DNA of 64,000 bases, taken from positions 1-64,000 of the forward strand of contig WTXI01000162.1 of assembly GCA_022376515.1 (NCBI GenBank), written 5' to 3'. Origin of the DNA: Lactifluus volemus. Lineage: Eukaryota > Basidiomycota > Agaricomycetes > Russulales > Russulaceae. The first letter of the stretch is position 1. The number at the start of each line of letters is the position of its first letter. Of this stretch, positions 6,426 through 47,993 are shown piece after piece. Made by a program: the position numbers and the translations under genes. The notes beneath the pieces were generated by a model, which made no database searches, had not been told where the DNA came from, and saw only the letters and a list, made by a program, of their open reading frames with translations.

Positions 6426-7562
6426 TAGGATAGTCAGCCAGATGGATGAGTAAAGATTCGAAAAAATAGACGAACCGCCACGGGATTCACAGGATATCTC
6501 CTGCTGTCCGAGAAGAATGTCTTTCCGCATGGTCCTCTTCGCATAAAGAGATATCATAATACGGGAGAGCGGTTACACAGCACTGCAGGAGAGTCAGTTG
6601 GACATGGAAATGGATGTACGAGAATTCTCACAATGCGTTGAGTTTCTCGTTCCATTCGACACGCTGAGCTACGCTCCGCATAGATCTGGACTGGCATAAT
6701 TTCTCCCCGTTGGTCGCTGTAACATAAAAGCGTCTCTCTTTCCCTGGGAGGGATTTCAGAGCAGGAAGATTGCGTGCCCTGATGACTGACAGAGGAAAGA
6801 GTTCAGTACTTATCAGAGCAGCATCACCGAAAATGTATACCAGTCACTTCGAGCTGGAGCATGCTCTGTTGTATTTCGCTGACTTGATCGCTGATAAAAG
6901 GCAGCTATGTGAGCAAATATCGATATGAAATGGATTTGACTGAGGTATGTACCGAATTCCAGATGTTTGAGGATCTGGGCTGTAGTAATGGTCAAGATCG
7001 GGGGACGTGAAGTGTGGGAGACTTTGGCATACGGATTTGGTTGTGGGAGCGGCATCGTAGATCGAAGTAAGAAGTTGAGATTGAGGATAACCACTGGCGT
7101 GCACTGCCAGTGGTCCACGTTTTGTCAGGGCGCTTCGCCATTGGGAACAAACAACCAAACAACTGCAAGGCGCCCGCGGTTTTCGTTCTGAGTCAGTAGT
7201 TCAACGGGAGGAGACCTGAAAACGGGGAATATCTCAAGATCTCAAGATCTATCGATTCGCTTCTTTACAGCTGCTACACTTCCACTCCCTGTTCTTAAAG
7301 GGGCTGAGCGGAATTTTGACTCGTGAATGCCTTGAATCTGGTATTACAGTTCAAATTCAAGCTTCTGAGGCTGTCTTTGGAAAAGAGTTGAGATTAATCT
7401 TATTTTTTCGCGCTTTGTTTCTGTTTTTCTTTTTTGAGAGAGAAGTAACTCATCAGATTTGCGATCCTCTGCGACGCCTCTACAATTTCCAGAACTTCTG
7501 CGCAGATGATGGCATTTGTAACGTAGGAGGCGACGTAGGGAGCTAACAGAACGCAATAGCGT
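6426..7562. other. Upstream region of the NLR-like gene; no firm exon
   Basis: A minus-strand stretch near 7056-6955 reads MPLPQPNPYAKVS and could be a first coding exon followed by a GTACAT donor, but the link to the rest is not demonstrable by eye. The remainder shows no gene. Confidence 0.3.
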
Positions 7563-38800: not shown

Positions 38801-40231
38801 GCGGAAGGTCGTATGCATGCACCGCTGAAAGGTGCCGGGGGCATTTCTGAGGCCGAAGGGCATCACATTGGGTAGGTAAAGTCCGAAGGGGGTGATGAAG
38901 GCTGCCTTCCATCGGTCCTCAGGCTTGATCCGTATGTTGTTATATCCCCACCTGATGTCCAAGGTGGTGAATAGCTGCTTGCCGCTGAGTTGTTCCAGTA
39001 TAGTTTCGATCCGGGGGAGTGGGTACGTGTCTGGTATCGTCCACTCGTTGACTTTCCTGTAATCCTGTACAGGTCGTAGTTTGCCGTCCGATTTCTTGAC
39101 AAAGAAGAAGGGGGTCGCCCATGGCGAGTCACCTCGTTCGATGTAGCCGAGTTGTTCATTTTCGTTGATCCATTCCTTTGCAGCCTCCATTTCAATGGGG
39201 TTCAAAGGGTACATTTTGCCAGGTATGGTGGTCGGTGCTCCAGGTTTGAGCTTGATTTCGTGGTCGTCGATACGAGATGGGGGAAAGCGCCTTGCCCCAT
39301 CCTCCAAGAACACCTTGTAGTGTCCCGCGTATTCTCTGGGTAGCTCGTCTGATGTCTTTTCCTTGGGGGCGTCGATCGCCCATTGAGTAGCCATAGAGGT
39401 TTTGTTTACCTCTATACAGTGCGCCAGGTCAAGCGTCTTGACCTCTGAAGTAGCTGGGGGTGGAGAGTTTCGTGGTGCTGATATAGCCGTGATTCCTGAG
39501 GGGTACTGGGGAAAGATTCTTCTAAACTCCACGAGTTCAGGGTGGCTTGATGTATCCAGTTCCGGGAGTCCCTGTGTCGAGGCGCGGAGTTCGGCGATCT
39601 TGCTTTGCTTCCACTTCTTTTGGCACCTGTCGTGTTGGATAGATTCCCGTATGCTGGCGATTTTCTTGTGTTGCCATAGCGTCTCCACCTCGGAGACCTC
39701 GGTGTCTTTGGGAAGTCCGTTGGGGTGCTCCGGGAAGTATTCCTTCCATGTTTCGGTTCCAATCACTTCGGGTTCCAAAGTAAGGGCGTCATAAGCTAGT
39801 TTCTTGCGCCGATTCTCGTATCTTATGTCCGCCTCCCTAAGCCGTCGCCTAGCGTGGTTTTCTACTCCCAGAAAGCGAGCTCTGGAGAGTGCGCGGGTGG
39901 TTATTTCGACGGGGAGATCGTCCCAAGTCATGTTTGTCCAATTGATGTACAGGTTGAAAGCTTTGAGCCAGGTAAATCCGAAAATTACGCGGTCCCTTCC
40001 CAGGTTCGCGACAAGGAATAACAGTTCCTCGCTCTTGCTTCCTCAGGTAACGTGTAGTACGACGTACTTTTTGACCGCACCATCTCGGTTATGTGTTCCG
40101 TCCACATTGGTGACTTGTACCGGTATCGGGAGTGTCTTGGTGGCAATTCCCCATCGCTCAACTGTCCTTTGGTCGATGAAGTTTTCGCTTGCTCCACTGT
40201 CAATGAGGGCTGCTTCCCCGACCGCCCCACG
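35828..40231 (-). pseudogene. Gypsy-A Pol region (protease to C-terminal extension), two stop codons
   Basis: A single minus-strand frame from the hAT junction: protease (AALIDSGASENF), reverse transcriptase (YMDD near 38760), RNase H (ELEVDASQFATGAIL), integrase zinc finger (HNHITAGHPG) and DDE core (YHPQTDGQAERTNQ, about 37200), then a C-terminal region with ECPYCGGNHPSTTC. It is very similar to Gypsy-B, but TGA codons occur at 40045-40043 and 37297-37295 where Gypsy-B has CGA (Arg) and AAG (Lys). The chromodomain is missing: the sequence passes from LLTPYTE straight to IDGYKGP (about 36650). Gypsy-B inserted in the last 40 codons. Confidence 0.92.
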
Positions 40232-40440
40232 TAGTGTTGCGGCAGCTTGCGGCTATTGGCAGCTTAGCCGAGAGCCGGAGCCGGCTTATCCTTAGCCGTA
40301 CGGAGCCGAGCACCTGTCAAGCCCCCATTTTAGTTAGCTTGTGGGAGCTTCCAATCACGGCTACAGGCGTGAGAAGCCATTGGCTAAGCCATGGCGGTTC
40401 GTGCCTCCCCGTTGCCCAACCAACCCGCCTCCCAGACACC
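40232..40440. repeat. hAT left terminal inverted repeat and subterminal AGCC motifs
   Basis: TAGTGTTGCGG is followed by clustered AGCCG/GGCTT motifs (agccgagagccggagccggc near 40266). Similar motif clusters occur at the right end, 47800-47985. Confidence 0.85.
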
Positions 40441-40448
40441 AGCCACCA

Positions 40449-42711
40449 ATGAGCATCACACCTCCTCGCTCAGCCAATTCGCTGCTTGCTCCTGGCACTC
40501 CAATACACACTCGCAGTTCGACTACTGGATGCCTCAACAAAGAACATCTCACACGAGACAAGATCTTTCAAGCATTATCAGCAGAAATAGCTCCTTTCTT
40601 CCTTGGTCCCATGCCTCCTACAGAGTTTCTCTCCACTTTCCTTCCGAGTTCGGAACCTTCGAGTTCTGTATCGGGTATATTTGATGAACTAGGCAACACG
40701 GCGGATGAGGCTCAGATGTACCCAATATTTGTAAGTTATCGAGTGCTCTCTGAGCTTTAGGTATAGAACACTGAAGGGAAACCATCAGGTTGCAGCTGTT
40801 CAGCAACACGTCAAAAGGCTCTGGATCCGTGATACAGCAAACAAAAGTGACATAGCCGTTACCAAGTACAACGTTTCCTTCTCACCCGACTGCACTGTTT
40901 ACGCCAAAGAACACCATAAAGTCATCACAGTTGATTCTCACCTCAGCGATATCTTTATCGAATTCAAGCACAACCAAGTGGATGATCCCTTTCTCCCTAA
41001 TCCAAGGCTTCAATCACATTCTAATCCGCTCATGCGTGAAAATGCAAAGGGACTCAAAACAGCCGGTCAGATTGCTACATACGCGGCTTTGCAACTAGAC
41101 TCTCAGTATTGCACGCACATTTTCAGTGTCCTCATTATGAAGACTTATGCACGGCTCATACGATGGGATCGGAGTGGTGCAATTGTCACCGGGCCAATCT
41201 ATTATGCAGAAGATTCCGCGCTATTGGACTTTTTCACCCGTTATGATCAAGCGGACAGAGCGACGCGAGGACATGACGACACCGTTCGCAGAGCCTCAGT
41301 AGACGAGACTGAGAAAGCTTGCCTCGCTGACGACAAATTCAAGAATCAGGAACTCCTTGTCGTCGCCGTCCCTCGAGTAGTCGTGCCACCACGCCTTGGC
41401 TACTACGTTATCACACCGCCCATAGCCCGGCCTCACATGCCTTTTGGTCGTGCGACCCGCACCTCAATCGCTTATGACATCGAATATGGCCGCATCGTCT
41501 TCTTCAAGGATTCGTGGAGGGTCGACCTCGAGGGAATGCTGAAGGAAGGTGATATCTACGTGGAACTGAATCGAGCGAATATACCCAATATCCCTCACTG
41601 CTCAGCCTTCGGTGACGTGAATGGTCATACCACGCACACCCACCAATATGTCAATGCGGAGTGGGTACCGCGGTCTAAGTTTCAAGTTGAAAACGCATTC
41701 ACTCGTCATACTCATCATCGATTAATCTTGAATGATATCGGTGAATCGTTGGAAACCTTCAAAACCAGTAAAGACCTGGTACAGGGCATTTTTGCAGCTT
41801 TGCAAGGTGCGTATCTGACCCCCCCTATCTGTTATGACTACCAACTGACCATTTTCTAGCTCATGAAGCCGCTTTTCAGAGATGTTACATCCTTCATCGT
41901 GACATTAGCTCGAATAATATACTATTGACTCCGAACAAAGGTGGACTTCTCATCGACTGGGACCTCTGCAAAAGAGTTGATTCGAGTGATTCATCACCTG
42001 GAGGTGCTCGCCAGTTCACCCGTACAGTACGTTACCACAATTTCCCAATGTGTGTTTCTTGACGATAGTTGGCAGGGTACATGGCGGTTTATGGCAGCGG
42101 ACATTGTCGAGGACCCCACAATTCATCAAACATTTGTCCATGACATCGAGTCCACTTTCTTCGTCCTGCTATGGATGGCTATCAACTACGTCAAATCCGA
42201 CTGGGACATAACGAAACGATCGTCCGAGCTTGGCATTATATTTGATCCACCTGTTTATGGAGATTCCGGAGGATCCACCAAGTCCCGCTTCATGCGCGGT
42301 GATTTCGACTCGGACTTGCCCAGATTTGTCAATAACCCACCTCTCACCGGTCTGTTGATCGAGCTGAGGTCTTTGCTTTCTCACCGTCATTACAAACAGC
42401 CCCAGCCCGTGATGGGCCACAACGAGAATCCCGAGAAGTTTAAGAAGCGTCTCGAACGTCACACTGAGCATGAAACGGGCATGAAAAGCCTCGAGAACTA
42501 CGATGCCATCATCGATTGTTTTAAGAGGTCCATCGAAGCCCTGGATTGGCCGCCCGGGGACTCCGCCGAAAAGCAGGCGGTTATCCTCTCGCAAGCAGAG
42601 CGGTATGATTTACTTTCGAGTTCCAAGAGATGTCGGGATGCTGCTCCGGAAGGTGAAGCGTCATCGCGGAAGCGAGCCAACATCAAATCGAGTCCTTTTG
42701 AATCGATATGA
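40449..42711 (+). CDS. FunK1-type protein kinase carried by the hAT element
   Basis: ATG at 40449. Introns are visible at 40731-40788, near 41806-41859 and near 42030-42078, all with GT..AG and readable joins. The N-terminal half carries conserved FunK1-like stretches, and the kinase core shows ILHRDISSNNILL (catalytic HRD with the loop Asn kept), GLLIDWDLC (DWD in place of DFG) and GTWRFMAADI (activation-segment end). It ends in a basic tail (SSRKRANIKSSPF) that could act as a nuclear signal. FunK1 kinases are a fungal-specific, expanded family with mostly unknown substrates. The gene lies inside transposon ends and on the same strand as the transposase. No stop or frameshift was seen, so it is probably functional. 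Confidence 0.85.
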
Positions 42712-42905
42712 CTCGGATTTCATCATTTGTATGTGTACTCTTATGTCTTGGACCATGGTGTATGCCATGTTTCTATCTTACGCTTCAGGGTAGTGTACAA
42801 CGTCCGAATAGTTCGGGCTCGGGCTTTACGTCTACACCCGTACTAAATGTTGAACTCTATTTACATGAATTCCATCTTTTGTAAACGACCGCGTGCTGCC
42901 TGAAG

Positions 42906-42977
42906 GTTCAACGTTCAACGTTCAACATTCAACGTTCAACGACCTCAGCGCCTTCAGTGACCCCTCACTGATATATA
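42906..42977 (+). promoter_or_regulatory. GTTCAAC x5 and TATA box upstream of the hAT transposase
   Basis: Five contiguous 7-base units (GTTCAAC x3, ATTCAAC, GTTCAAC) at 42906-42940 are followed by ATATATAG at 42971, 39 bases before the transposase ATG at 43016. The repeats could be regulatory or transposase-binding sites; that is inferred. Confidence 0.6.
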
Positions 42978-43015
42978 GTGACTGCATTTCTTCCCTTCCT
43001 CACCTCGGACACCTC

Positions 43016-46000
43016 ATGCCTCCCCGTGTCCCCAGGGCCTCGAAGGCCAAAGTCGTCAATGATATCCCCTCAGACCTACCGGAAGGTTCATCTCCTGCAG
43101 CTCAAGTGCCCTCTCGTCCATCAACTCGGCGTGCTTATTCTCGTGTACGTGTGTACCATCCATACACTGAAGGTTCTAGCTCTGAGCCACTGACTACATC
43201 GTCGTCATCATCATCGCCGTTGTCGTCCAGTCTACCACTACGAAGACCCAAGTTGTCGATAATGTCCCTCAGGAAGGCTTTCGTGAGCATGAGCCTGCTG
43301 TGCCCCGAGCCACTCGTCCGTCCAAGCCTACTTGCAGGGGCCGGCGTCCTCGTGTAATGGTGAGTTTCTTACGCTCCTACATTGAGGGTTCTAGCTCTGA
43401 CAATCGTGAGTACTAAGCCTGTTGCAGATGACGATCGTGAAGAAATCCAGTTACCTGACAACGATAGCGATAGCGAGTCCGATGGTCCCCCAGCTCAACC
43501 AACACTTGATCATTCAAACGGACTTCTTTCTCAATCTAACACACTTTGCACGGATACCGTCGACACCAACTCTGAGCTTCCAAATACTGATACGGATATG
43601 GCATTCTTTTTCACTGAATTTGTTAACGATGAAGGTGAGACGATGAGGCGATGCAATGCTTGTTTGTAAGTAACGCGTCCTTTGTCATTGGTGTGATTTG
43701 ACAGAACAACTTGAACAGGCTGGAGGGCCTTAGTGAAGAAAAGGCATCTTCCTATGGCCCGAACACGGGTAATACTAACCTTCGGAGACACCTGGACAAC
43801 AAACATAACGTCATGTATTGTGAAGCTCGCGAGAAGTACAAATGGCCTATCTTCAAGTCTCTCGAGCACCAGGACAAGGGAGGCGTCAAGAAAGACTCAC
43901 CTGGGCGCCAGCTTCCGGCCTATACTCCGGACGTATTCATCCGATACCTTGCTCGCTGGATCGTTGCAGATGACCAGGTGAGCGTTGTCCTGTCTCACTT
44001 CCGTTAGTAGCTTATATCTCAAACTTAGTCATTTCGCGTTGTCGATTGCCTCGAATTTCGTGATATTTGCTATGTTCTGCGACCTGAACTTAGCACCATC
44101 CCACATCGCGACAAAATGCGCGAACGAATTACTATTGAATGGGCAAATGCGTTCAAGAATTTGCGTAATGAACTCGCTGTTAGTCATTTCCTTTGATGAC
44201 AGGAGCACTGACCCATTACTCCAAATAGAGGTCGTGCGGTCGGATAAGTTTCACCGCCGATATCTGGTCAAGTGCAGACTTGACGCCATATCTCGCTCTA
44301 ACATCGCACTGGATTTCTCGGGAGAACAATATTCTTGTTTTGAAAGCTGCTCTAATCGGCTTTCACCACCTTCCTGATGCACATACGGGTAAAAATATCG
44401 CTCATGCCATCCTATCTCTTATCGATCGTGCTCAGATTGACCCGCTCAAGGTATGTGACCGTATATTAAACCGAGAGCTTTACTTAAATGACTAGATCGG
44501 TCATTTCACTCTTGACAACGCCGCAAATAATGGGACCGCCATGGAAGAGCTGCAAGAATTATTACGCGTCGAGCGTGACGTTGCATTCGATCATCGCAAT
44601 CATCGCATCATGTGTTTCCCACACATTGTTAACATCTGCACTGGCCACATCATCGCCGCAAGTACTCAAGACGATGAGTTTGACCCTCTGCAGGACGATC
44701 CTATCAAACGTGTTGCAGACTTTATCCGCTACATACGGTCATCGTACTCCAGAAGGGAATCGTTTGCGCGTAGTGTCAAGCTTTGCATCGACGATAACCC
44801 CGAGTTAGAAAAAAATCATCCCGAGTTGAATTCTCCCGAGACAAAGATGGGACGGCCACTAGAACTCAAGCTGCATGTCAAGACTCGATGGGATTCTGTC
44901 TACCTGATGATCCGGCGTTTTCGTTTCCTGAGGAAGGTGAGTACACACGTTCGAACTTCGAACGAAACTGTCGGCACTGACCCTAGGTATTCAGGCTGTA
45001 GATACGTACTTCGCGAATAATCCGTCGATCGAATCTATGAAGCTAAGCGCTACTGAGTGGGACCACCTAGAGCACATAGAATGTGTTCTAGAGGTATGTT
45101 CCCAAATACTCTTTTCGTGTCACGTTGATGATCATTGGTCAATCTTTACAGGCTGCGCATATAGTTTTGCAAACTATGTCGTCTGAATCGACGCCAGTCT
45201 TGTGTGGTGCCATCGCCAGTTTCGAACTTCTCATGACTACGTGGGAAAAACTCGGTGCTACATACTCAGAAGTAAAGCACTGGACAGATATTGGTTTGTT
45301 CTGGGCGCGGAAATATTACAAGCGGATGGACGACACTCATGCGTACATCATCACCTTGGGTAGGTTCCCTGATTTACCGGGGTCGGGACAGTTGCTGAAT
45401 CGCTTCATAGTTCTCGATCCTGCCACACGCTTCTCGTGGATCCAGCGCGAGTGGGAGAAAAAATATATAGATCTGGCTAGAAAAGTCATGTTCGATCTGG
45501 TAATATTTACCTGCAGGCTCTAGCTGCACTCTGACATTCACTATTTATCGTAGATGCGTGAGTATCGCGCCAAGAAGCCGTCAATTGTGGAATCCGCCCA
45601 ACCCCCCAAGCTTCCATCGTACGCGATGACGTCGACACGCTTCCAACTCCACGATCATCCCATACACCCCAGATCTGATGGCCCGGCATCGACGTGGAGC
45701 GTCGAAGACGAATTCACAAAGTACACTTCGAGTCCCTTGACCACGGAAAACACCAATATCCTGACATTCTGGGAGGTACGTAAATGTTATTGCTTAATTT
45801 TCAAATTTACAACTCATGCTTACCGCTAAGGCCCACAAGTCTGAATTCCCTACTCTCTTTGCTATAGCCATGGACTACCTCCCCATTCAAGCATCTTCTG
45901 TTCCAAGCGAACGAGTTTTTTCGTTAGCTGGGGATACCGATACCAAGAAGCGAAACCGGATCACCCCAGCCCTCATGGAGGCGTTGCAGATGCTAAAATT

Positions 46001-46169
46001 CCTGCTAAAGAAGCAGCGTCTCGAGTTCATGGTTGGTTGGAAGACGGAGGAGAGTGAAATGCTGGGAGAGAGCAAGCAAGAACCAGAGATTACGCTCGAG
46101 TCTTTGTTGGGCGGGGACGCCGAAACCGCGAGGGATGAACTACTTGGTGATGCTATGAATTTAGACTAA
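43016..46169 (+). CDS. hAT transposase
   Basis: ATG 43016, many short introns, stop at 46167-46169. Domains in order: a low-complexity N-terminus; a BED-type zinc finger with RRCNAC (about 43648) and, after an intron, NTNLRRHLDNKH; the RNase H-like catalytic core with SFTADIWSSADLTPYLALTS (about 44240-44300) and FTLDNAANNGTAMEELQELL (about 44505); and the C-terminal dimerisation region YLPIQASSVPSERVFSLAGD with KRNRITPALMEALQMLKF (about 45870-46010). These are the standard hAT parts. The exon joins read through without stops. The enzyme recognises the element's ends and makes 8-base staggered cuts in target DNA. It lies between the two kinase genes. It appears intact and could mobilise this element. 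Confidence 0.88.
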
Positions 46170-46407
46170 CCGTGACTGAGTCTACGACACTTAGGGATAA
46201 GGACCTTTACTGCTAGTTTAACGTGATACCATCCCAGATTTCGTACTTTCATACTTCATGCACCCTGAAACATTGTCTGATCCCCCGTCACTCGATTTGC
46301 AAAATGGCACGTGCGATCACATGCGGAGAGTCGGAGCTCGGAGTTCTAACTTCATCATGAAGGTCAACATCAACCCAACACAACTCGTGTATACAATACC
46401 ATACCCC

Positions 46408-47561
46408 ATGTCAGATTCAAGCAAACTCAGCAGCGTCCTTCAGCCTAGCGTAGTTCGCGTACGTGGACGATATAGGCTGGGAAAGTTACTGGGCTCTGGA
46501 ACCCATGGTAAGTTGTTCTGTTTCCGTCTCACCTTTCGATTTTGCTCAATCCTCTAGGACATGTATACTTAGGACGGGACATCAAAACTAGGCTGGATGT
46601 TGCACTAAAGCTTGAGCCTGTCAAAGCACGAAACTCCCGTCTCAGTAACGAGCATGCTGTTTACAAGGCCCTTTCAAATGTGCCCGGCTTCCCTGCCATG
46701 CATTGGTATGGCACAGAGGTCCCCTACAACGTGATGGTTCTTGAGCGCCTCGATCTTACGTTGGAAGAGGCAATATGCAAGTCCCACGACGACAACTTGG
46801 TGTTCTCCTTCGCCGATCAAATGGTAAATTTTCTCTGTTTCTCAAAATGTTTAATTCTTATCCCTTTCGACAGCTTTCACGTCTTGAATCGCTACACGAA
46901 CAAAGTTACATCCACCGCGACGTTAAACCGTCGAGCTTCATGACGGGCATGGGTGAAAAAGGCAGCCAGGTGTTTCTAATCGACTTTGGCTTGGCCCAAC
47001 TCTTTCGCAATCCCTTGACTCGTCAGCACCTTCCGCAGATGTCTGAACTGAAGACTGTAGGCACCATCGCCTTTACATCAATTAGCAGCCATCTAGGACA
47101 GACGCAATCACGCCGCGACGATCTTGAAGCACTCGTGTATACTATTATCTATTTATATCGTGGTCGCTTACCTTGGCAAGACGACCTTGTGGGAGACTCT
47201 GTTGGGAAACGTGGAGCAGCTGTTCTCAAGAAGAAGATTGCCTCGGCCGAAACTCTTTGCCTCGGCCTACCTGCACCCTTCCACACTTTTGCGCAGTACA
47301 TTCGATCGCTCAACTTCGACCAGAAGCCACAGTACAGCTACCTCCACACACTCCTCACGCAATGCTTGAGCAGCTCAGCTCCTGATTCCATTCATTTTGC
47401 TTCATTCGGCAAATCCTCCTCACCATCCAGCGACCGAATGTAAGTACTTTTGTTTGTCCCGACCCCGAGTCCCCGACCCCCGAGGCTGACAAACAAGAAT
47501 GTGCAGTTTACGTTCGTCGTTCAAAGGGCCGCGAGATGATCATTCAATGTTGAGTGGGTGA
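46408..47561 (+). CDS. CK1-like protein kinase carried by the hAT element
   Basis: Likely start at ATG 46408 (SDSSKLSSVLQPSVV follows); an in-frame ATG at 46258 is possible. Introns lie near 46509-46558, 46824-46874 and 47440-47506; the last joins to LRSSFKGPRDDHSMLSG and TGA at 47559. CK1 features: glycine loop LGSGTHGHVYLG, lysine in VALKLEP, HRDVKPSSFM, LIDFGLAQLF, and the CK1 signature GTIAFTSISSHLGQTQSRRDD with LEALVYTIIYLYRG. The usual loop asparagine (HRD.KP.N) is serine here (AGC), which may weaken catalysis. CK1 kinases are Ser/Thr kinases. This copy sits inside the transposon, downstream of the transposase on the same strand. Confidence 0.85.
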
Positions 47562-47985
47562 TAGGCCGTCATCGGCATGTTTGTGACTTGTACCACGATA
47601 TTTTAGTTGTTCCTTTCGCTGTAGGCTTGTAGCGCTGTGTAGACACGTTGCATGTGACGTGCAACGTGTTTGGCTTGTTGTTACTGTTCTTGTAGCCTGT
47701 GGGCCGTGGGCCCGTGGCACTTAGGTTAGAGTTTGTTGGACATTGAAGGGGTGGCGTCACCGCCATGCCACGTATCACAGATTCACGGGTACTTTGGAAA
47801 TGAGTGTGATGAGCTCCAAGCCGAGGGCTCCCCTCCGTAAGCCGGAACCATTAGCTAAGGCTAAGCGGCTTAGCCTTAGCTAAAGGTTCCGGCTAAGGTG
47901 GCTCGGCTAAATTTGGCAAGCCGATGCCATGGCTAAAGGGGGCTCGGCTTCGGCTAGCTCCGGCTCGTCGAGCCCCGCAACACTA
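47562..47985. repeat. hAT right subterminal region with a 55-base inverted repeat
   Basis: An almost perfect palindrome at 47840-47894 (arms gccggaaccattagctaagg and its complement, centre 47867) lies among many GGCT/AGCC motifs, followed by the right terminal inverted repeat ending CCGCAACACTA at 47985. Confidence 0.85.
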
Positions 47986-47993
47986 GCCCCACG

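Follow-up and report, generated by a model that had tools for sequence, protein, structure and literature searches.

A hAT transposon of Lactifluus volemus that carries two kinase genes with its transposase

The stretch of Lactifluus volemus DNA analysed here (64,000 nucleotides, referred to as the window) contains a hAT transposon of 7,754 bp at positions 40232-47985, in which genes for a FunK1 kinase, a hAT transposase and a CK1-like kinase follow one another on the + strand. These three genes move together as one unit between the terminal inverted repeats (TIRs) of the element, and 8-bp target-site duplications (TSDs) were found at several of the sites that it occupies. Furthermore, the arrangement of transposase and CK1 recurs in four transposase lineages of the same genome, and in two of them FunK1 lies left of the transposase. 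We lean towards reading the element as an autonomous hAT with a gene set of its own, composed of transposase and protein kinases, in which the kinases are kept as helpful to the element.

Structure and copies of the element

The first-pass annotation of this DNA had proposed exact ends, an insertion into a Gypsy-type element and three frameshift-free genes on one strand, and all of these were borne out. At the left end (40224-40242), an 8-bp TSD copy, GCCCCACG (40224-40231), is followed by the 11-bp TIR TAGTGTTGCGG (40232-40242, + strand), which is common to five further full-length copies. At the right end (47975-47993), the 11-bp TIR CCGCAACACTA (47975-47985, + strand), the complement of the left one, is followed by the second, perfectly matching 8-bp copy of GCCCCACG (47986-47993). 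The subterminal regions on both sides (40232-40431 and 47786-47985, + strand) are rich in the words AGCCG/CGGCT, of which eight were counted in the first 200 bp and nine in the last 200 bp, compared with 0.22 per 200 bp inside the element. The outermost parts of these regions, the first 127-131 bp and the last 119-128 bp, are common to short non-autonomous relatives. The host site of the window copy was identified by searching both 400-bp flanks separately. The right flank matched at 31 other places, and at 27 of these both flanks overlapped by exactly 8 bases, as in uninterrupted relatives of the Gypsy-type element; among the remaining four, one showed a 49-base gap and three had no listed left-flank match.

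The FunK1 gene (40449-42711, + strand) encodes 700 amino acids in four exons (40449-40730, 40789-41806, 41860-42026 and 42076-42711). Its product was matched to PF17667 (Pkinase_fungal) in a Pfam scan with an E-value of 8.9e-40 and carries the motifs HRDISSNN and DWD, including the HRD-S-N loop of FunK1 kinases, in which Ser replaces the usual Lys of the catalytic loop, as described in an excerpt of PMC3203195. The transposase gene (43016-46169, + strand; 838 amino acids, 12 exons, the N-terminal exons of the model being a best guess) encodes the Dimer_Tnp_hAT dimerisation domain (PF05699, E 3.1e-15 in the Pfam scan) that places it among the hATs, and its best-scoring homologue is a hAT protein of Amanita (38% identity over 90%). 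The motifs TADIW, LDNAANN, CFPH and SERVFS were recognised by eye in its translation and are candidates for the DDE catalytic residues and the CxxH motif of hATs. The CK1-like gene (46408-47561, + strand) encodes 328 amino acids in four exons (46408-46507, 46558-46823, 46874-47439 and 47507-47561). Its product was matched to PF00069 (Pkinase) with an E-value of 1.2e-15 and, among solved structures, best to casein kinase I delta (4kb8, E 2.9e-71, residues 13-284). The earlier CK1-like label therefore holds for the overall sequence; it does not extend to the loop, which is an atypical HRDVKPSSF where CK1 delta has HRDVKPDNF. All 17 introns in the three gene models are GT-AG, and the models are open throughout.

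Copies of the element were searched for in a genome of 62.4 Mb in 628 contigs (contigs of the searched genome are labelled C, and fetched loci L). The FunK1 half was found at 98-100% identity at ten loci, and near-identical loci spanning FunK1, transposase and CK1 numbered eight, the window included; together these are referred to as family 1. Six copies were followed to both ends (window, L010, L011, L012, L013 and L016), and five of them carry perfect 8-bp duplications, each of a different sequence. The sixth, L013 (C145:12681-21460), has full-length ends and intact genes, with the unmatched flanks GCCCCGTG and GTTCGGGG instead of a duplication, perhaps as a result of an exchange with another copy. 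All three genes are open in four of the eight trio copies (window, L010, L012 and L013). L011 shows a gap codon in CK1. In L016, FunK1 and the transposase each contain a stop, and FunK1 also has a gap codon. In both L009 and L015, gap codons occur in the transposase as well as in CK1, which has a stop besides. An insertion of about 1.43 kb interrupts the trio copies on C344 and C120 at element position 7319. The presence of such near-identical copies at separate sites suggests recent movement. These results match what the first-pass annotation had expected of a mobile trio, namely copies at different sites with 8-base duplications and both kinases, and a TIR pair shared with other copies. The TIR pair was found in 12 of the 12 short relatives fetched and its core also in a second family. 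The short TIRs and 8-bp TSDs typical of hATs were thus present both in five of the six copies followed to both ends and in all 12 short relatives.

Two other explanations of the structure were rejected. Kinases that had inserted separately do not agree with a trio that is constant across eight copies, and no separate scars were seen, although no dedicated scar search was made. TIRs that arose by chance do not agree with ends that are exact, with 8-bp duplications found at separate sites, with empty sites, or with a diverged family that has the same TIR core.

Two features of the copies were recorded besides. The insertion of about 1.43 kb at position 7319 is common to three family-1 copies (C344, C120 and C334), which form a sub-family, and its edges repeat 20 element bases. 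Of 20 duplications, 19 had A or G at position 6, which may reflect a target preference. The pattern nTnnnnAn, a target trait of some hATs, was not seen in these 20 duplications.

Related families and kinase-transposase neighbours

The second family is represented by an element of 8,940 bp on C596 (L040:552-9491, where L040 = C596:1000-10990), with the TIR TAGTGTTGCCGC, which has the core TAGTGTTGC in common with family 1. It contains the same trio in the same order and strand arrangement at much lower similarity: compared with family 1, FunK1 is 38.7% identical over the main alignment, CK1 31% and the transposase 30-71% in pieces, and the kinases overall are 31-43% identical. A family-2 trio is also present on C140, while C493 and C68 carry transposase and CK1, so that the eight family-1 loci and family 2 together give 11 trios. 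The C596 element has an inverted partner with the same ends (L040, L041 and L042), and the 8-bp flanks of the two, GTAACGGT and AGTATGGG, are exchanged. Recombination between two inverted normal insertions would leave exactly such flanks, which are a clean signature of inversion through recombination between transposon copies.

In family 3, relatives of the transposase on C20, C1, C89, C494 and C244 are followed on the same strand, after about 400 bp, by a CK1 gene (51-53% identical in the main piece). A TIR-like match, TAGTGTTGCGGCGGC, lies upstream of the transposase on C20; the sequence read for family 3 stops short of its right end. Family 4, known from search matches only, consists of transposase relatives on C596 and C620 with CK1 (43%) about 1.9 kb downstream.

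Across the genome, this type of transposase precedes at least 23 of the 34 CK1-like loci on the same strand by no more than 6 kb, compared with 0.06 expected, and the full trio is present at at least 11 of the 34. Similarly, at least 13 of the 30 FunK1 loci have a transposase downstream. The CK1-like loci are those with a best E-value of at most about 1e-11, weaker matches (generic kinases and fragments) having been left out, and all of these counts are lower bounds, as 54 of the 264 transposase candidates were scored. The other 11 CK1-like and 17 FunK1 loci have no such transposase neighbour among the candidates scored. Carriage on transposons as a route to kinase expansion, which had been proposed for basidiomycetes in general, is therefore supported for the genome of L. 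volemus.

A search with the left end of the element returned 34 places, 24 of them without FunK1. From these, 12 short elements of 1.26-3.39 kb were fetched, every one with the TIR (one base changed at one end in three of them) and a perfect 8-bp duplication; no transposase was found in them by DNA comparison and no kinase by tblastn. One group of short relatives contains a piece of a prenyltransferase gene (PF00432, E 8.2e-23 for L027, present in both L027 short elements), and L028 shares the DNA of this piece with L027. The lineage is therefore able to pick up host genes.

The element on C125 (L037; 7,796 bp), counted among the 24 places, is 77% identical to the window element over the transposase and CK1 parts. 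It is flanked on both sides by GCTTCCC, a 7-bp repeat (8 bp when the final A at the right end is counted in). C125 keeps CK1 (72% amino acid identity to the window CK1 over the main alignment), and its left slot holds an N-terminal piece of PRP8 (PF08082, E 3.5e-23) and GC-rich repeats. A 120-bp match to the 3' end of FunK1 (E 5.9e-10 in a pairwise comparison) was identified as a FunK1 relic. FunK1 was thus most likely present in the common ancestor of the window element and C125, and this ancestor would have had both kinases, since C125 keeps CK1 together with the FunK1 relic. Within L037 the GC-rich repeat block and the PRP8 piece lie at about 1040-2490 and 2493-2745, the slot of the family-1 FunK1.

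In other species, the best-scoring named relatives of both kinases belong to Lactarius and Russula, the one exception in the first 20 FunK1 rows being from Amanita. For four of the 13 listed Lactarius CK1 rows, a FunK1 row of the same species was found on an equally long contig (L. hengduanensis, 38009; L. indigo, 258437; L. sanguifluus, 136187; L. psammicola, 56181), which suggests that FunK1 and CK1 lie on the same contig, at whatever distance. None of the listed Russula rows had FunK1 and CK1 contigs of equal length. When the 240 listed kinase proteins were compared by BLAST with ten hAT transposases, two ran into transposase sequence, both of them FunK1 models: P0140 of L. psammicola (E 2.7e-5) and P0152 of R. 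emetica, matching a hAT of L. tabidus (E 5.8e-23). A third, P0135 of L. psammicola, was seen to do so by eye only. A scan of viral contigs with FunK1 found nothing.

Trees, constraint and catalytic residues

In the transposase tree, one Amanita row and two rows of L. tabidus grouped with family 1 (90/99); the sequences of family 3 were too short to be included. In the FunK1 tree, the window FunK1 grouped with all eight Lactarius rows used (100/99). In the CK1 tree, which contains no host fungal CK1, families 1 and 3 fell in a group of 15 Lactarius and Russula rows that was split from algal and animal CK1s (99/98). In this group the Lactarius set was joined by family 1 (100/99), and family 3 was placed beside R. 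emetica and L. deliciosus (100/100). These groupings support an old association of kinases and transposase within the family-1 line. The comparison of kinase trees with the transposase tree, as suggested in the first-pass annotation, was only partly possible; it favoured this old association and did not join family 2 to family 1.

Constraint was estimated from the ratio of non-synonymous to synonymous substitution rates (dN/dS) between the window and C125. The values were 0.50 for the transposase (824 codons, no stops) and 0.47 for CK1 (315 codons, no stops), and for CK1 the p-value was 0.001 (Fisher test on rounded, back-calculated counts). FunK1, present in C125 only as a 3' relic, was not used. 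In this one testable diverged pair, CK1 appears to be constrained about as strongly as the transposase.

Catalysis by CK1 requires the residues of the HRDxKPxN loop and the DFG motif. The window CK1 keeps DFG and has lost the Asn of the loop, and in C125 the same loop HRDVKPSSF stands with DFG changed to DFS. The family-2 loop, HRHLKPSHI, has lost both Asp and Asn. The loop is complete in family 3 (HRDIKPGNF) and in six family-1-like CK1 rows of Lactarius (HRDVKP[TA]NF), and that of R. decolorans reads HLDVKPDNF. In FunK1 the catalytic residues (HRD, Asn and DWD) are kept in both families, as HRDISSNN and DWD in family 1 and HRDLSVGN and DWD in family 2. Judged from these residues, FunK1 looks like a working kinase, and CK1 looks like a constrained protein that is drifting towards a pseudokinase in some families.

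Possible role of the kinases and comparison with known systems

The kinases are most likely working parts of the element. It is established for hATs that the transposase cuts at the TIRs and that insertion produces 8-bp duplications, and the transposase described here would act in this way. The kinases would most likely act on the complex of transposase and DNA or, when the element is excised, on cell-cycle control and break repair in the host, and would probably modulate transposase activity or the way the host responds to the double-strand breaks that excision leaves. The active enzyme would be FunK1. The CK1-fold protein would be a regulatory or competing partner where its loop has decayed and an enzyme in the families that keep the loop; a partner or competitor of this kind is plausible because the yeast CK1 Hrr25 has a role in break repair. 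Kinases that serve the element would be consistent with the constraint and the recurrence described above. A wider proposal can be put forward only tentatively: the CK1-fold protein may be a standing part of the transposition machinery of an old hAT lineage across Russulaceae, able to turn into a pseudokinase while FunK1 provides a second, active kinase, and much of the multiplication of FunK1 and CK1-like genes would then reflect transposon copy number, not host signalling.

Several results weigh against kinases that serve the element. The family-2 CK1 grouped with algal and animal CK1s, on a branch so long (1.57) that its placement is unsure; the family-2 FunK1 fell outside the Lactarius group, with a Boletus row (93/90), and the family-2 transposase outside the group of family 1, Amanita and L. 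tabidus hATs. Since family 2 stands apart from family 1 in the trees, the kinases may have been captured more than once, separately in family 2. The genome search detected no FunK1 in families 3 and 4, nor was any detectable between the TIR-like sequence and the transposase on C20, the only family-3 element whose left end was read. No kinase was found in a further transposase lineage (C614/C168), of which 8.0 and 7.0 kb were read and no complete ends identified; it is best interpreted as decayed, since C614, which was flagged for odd composition, is placed together with C125 (100/100) within the clade of family 1. Among the 120 listed CK1 proteins there is none that continues into transposase sequence. 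The constraint estimate comes from a single pair of copies, and the CK1 genes of the near-identical copies differ from that of the window by 0-2 synonymous and 2-5 non-synonymous changes, which are too few and do not suggest constraint. Finally, catalysis by CK1 is doubtful in families 1 and 2 because the loop Asn or the catalytic Asp has been lost.

Some of these points would be expected if the kinases were passengers that give the element no help, in a hAT lineage that often captures host genes and took up kinases possibly more than once. We regard this explanation as unlikely, though it has the most in its favour among the competing ones. It agrees with the capture of the PRP8 and prenyltransferase pieces, with a left slot that can be replaced, with the degraded CK1 loop in two families and with the position of the family-2 kinases in the trees. 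However, passengers would hardly account for the position of CK1 in four transposase lineages, where it follows the transposase on the same strand, for the dN/dS of CK1 and its lack of stops in the pair tested, or for catalytic residues of FunK1 that are kept across families only about 40% identical. Pack-type elements capture pieces of host genes, and the short relatives and C125 resemble them in the pieces that they carry; the kinase genes differ in being whole, multi-exon and recurrent in diverged families.

It is improbable that the kinases mainly benefit the fungus, in signalling, competition or development, with the transposon as their vehicle. Both kinases have multiplied in Russulaceae, the largest named clusters at 90% identity holding 213 FunK1 (R. 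emetica) and 152 CK1 (R. decolorans) proteins, which may include several isolates, and FunK1 expansions have been reported in other fungi (excerpts of PMC3203195). However, what has been copied is whole transposons, the one in the window, at least, lies inside a Gypsy-type repeat, and half of the eight trio copies have a broken gene. A duplicated host segment with coincidental TIRs, which would account for several genes being involved and for nothing else, is refuted by the exact ends, the 8-bp duplications at different sites, the 27 empty sites among relatives of the interrupted repeat and the second diverged family with the same TIR core.

Several known systems resemble the element in part, as far as the excerpts of the cited papers describe them. 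The fungal hATs of Marasmius oreades (MarorhAT; PMC9674265) also have a C-terminal dimerisation domain and non-autonomous relatives with shared termini; the window element, for comparison, has a short TIR whose first bases are TAGTG, together with an 8-bp duplication. The autonomous MarorhAT-10 measures 3,396 bp with its transposase (PMC9674265), whereas the elements described here measure 7.75-8.9 kb with two kinases. The fungal TET/JBP transposons, including hAT7 of Puccinia (Kojima 2025, PMC12730594), likewise combine a transposase gene with a gene for an accessory enzyme, and in some of them the gene order is conserved. They differ in that the accessory gene encodes a dioxygenase and the hAT7 duplication is 7 bp (PMC12730594), compared with FunK1, CK1 and 8 bp here. 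No match to a TET/JBP gene was found among the three products of the window element, for which the Pfam scan returned kinase-type and hAT families only. IS3EU transposons with an alpha-kinase gene are a fungal DNA transposon lineage that, like the element described here, has a kinase beside the transposase, although the transposase superfamily and the kinase family are other ones and the two genes are oppositely oriented (PMC12730594). Accessory enzymes on fungal transposons were therefore already known (PMC12730594). The first-pass annotation knew of no hAT with this pair of kinases, and in openly licensed PMC full text no paper on a hAT with FunK1 or CK1 was found either, which is weak evidence of absence.

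FunK1 is expanded in several fungi without a known cause. Such expansions were reported in Paracoccidioides and Fusarium, and transposon carriage is not described in the excerpts of these reports (PMC3203195; PMC6001611). One transposon that multiplies two kinase families offers a directly testable mechanism, and kinase counts in mushroom genomes may need to be re-read. If the preferred reading of kinases that serve the element is true, this would be a rare case of a transposon that brings its own signalling proteins, one of them altered in its active site yet apparently constrained, and control of host repair or the cell cycle by a transposon would become testable. Among the FunK1 loci of L. 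volemus, three inverted gene pairs about 8.5 kb apart were also observed (C24:855154/863741, C268:285520/294094 and C122:40112/48472), which are possibly another mobile unit or a duplicated cluster.

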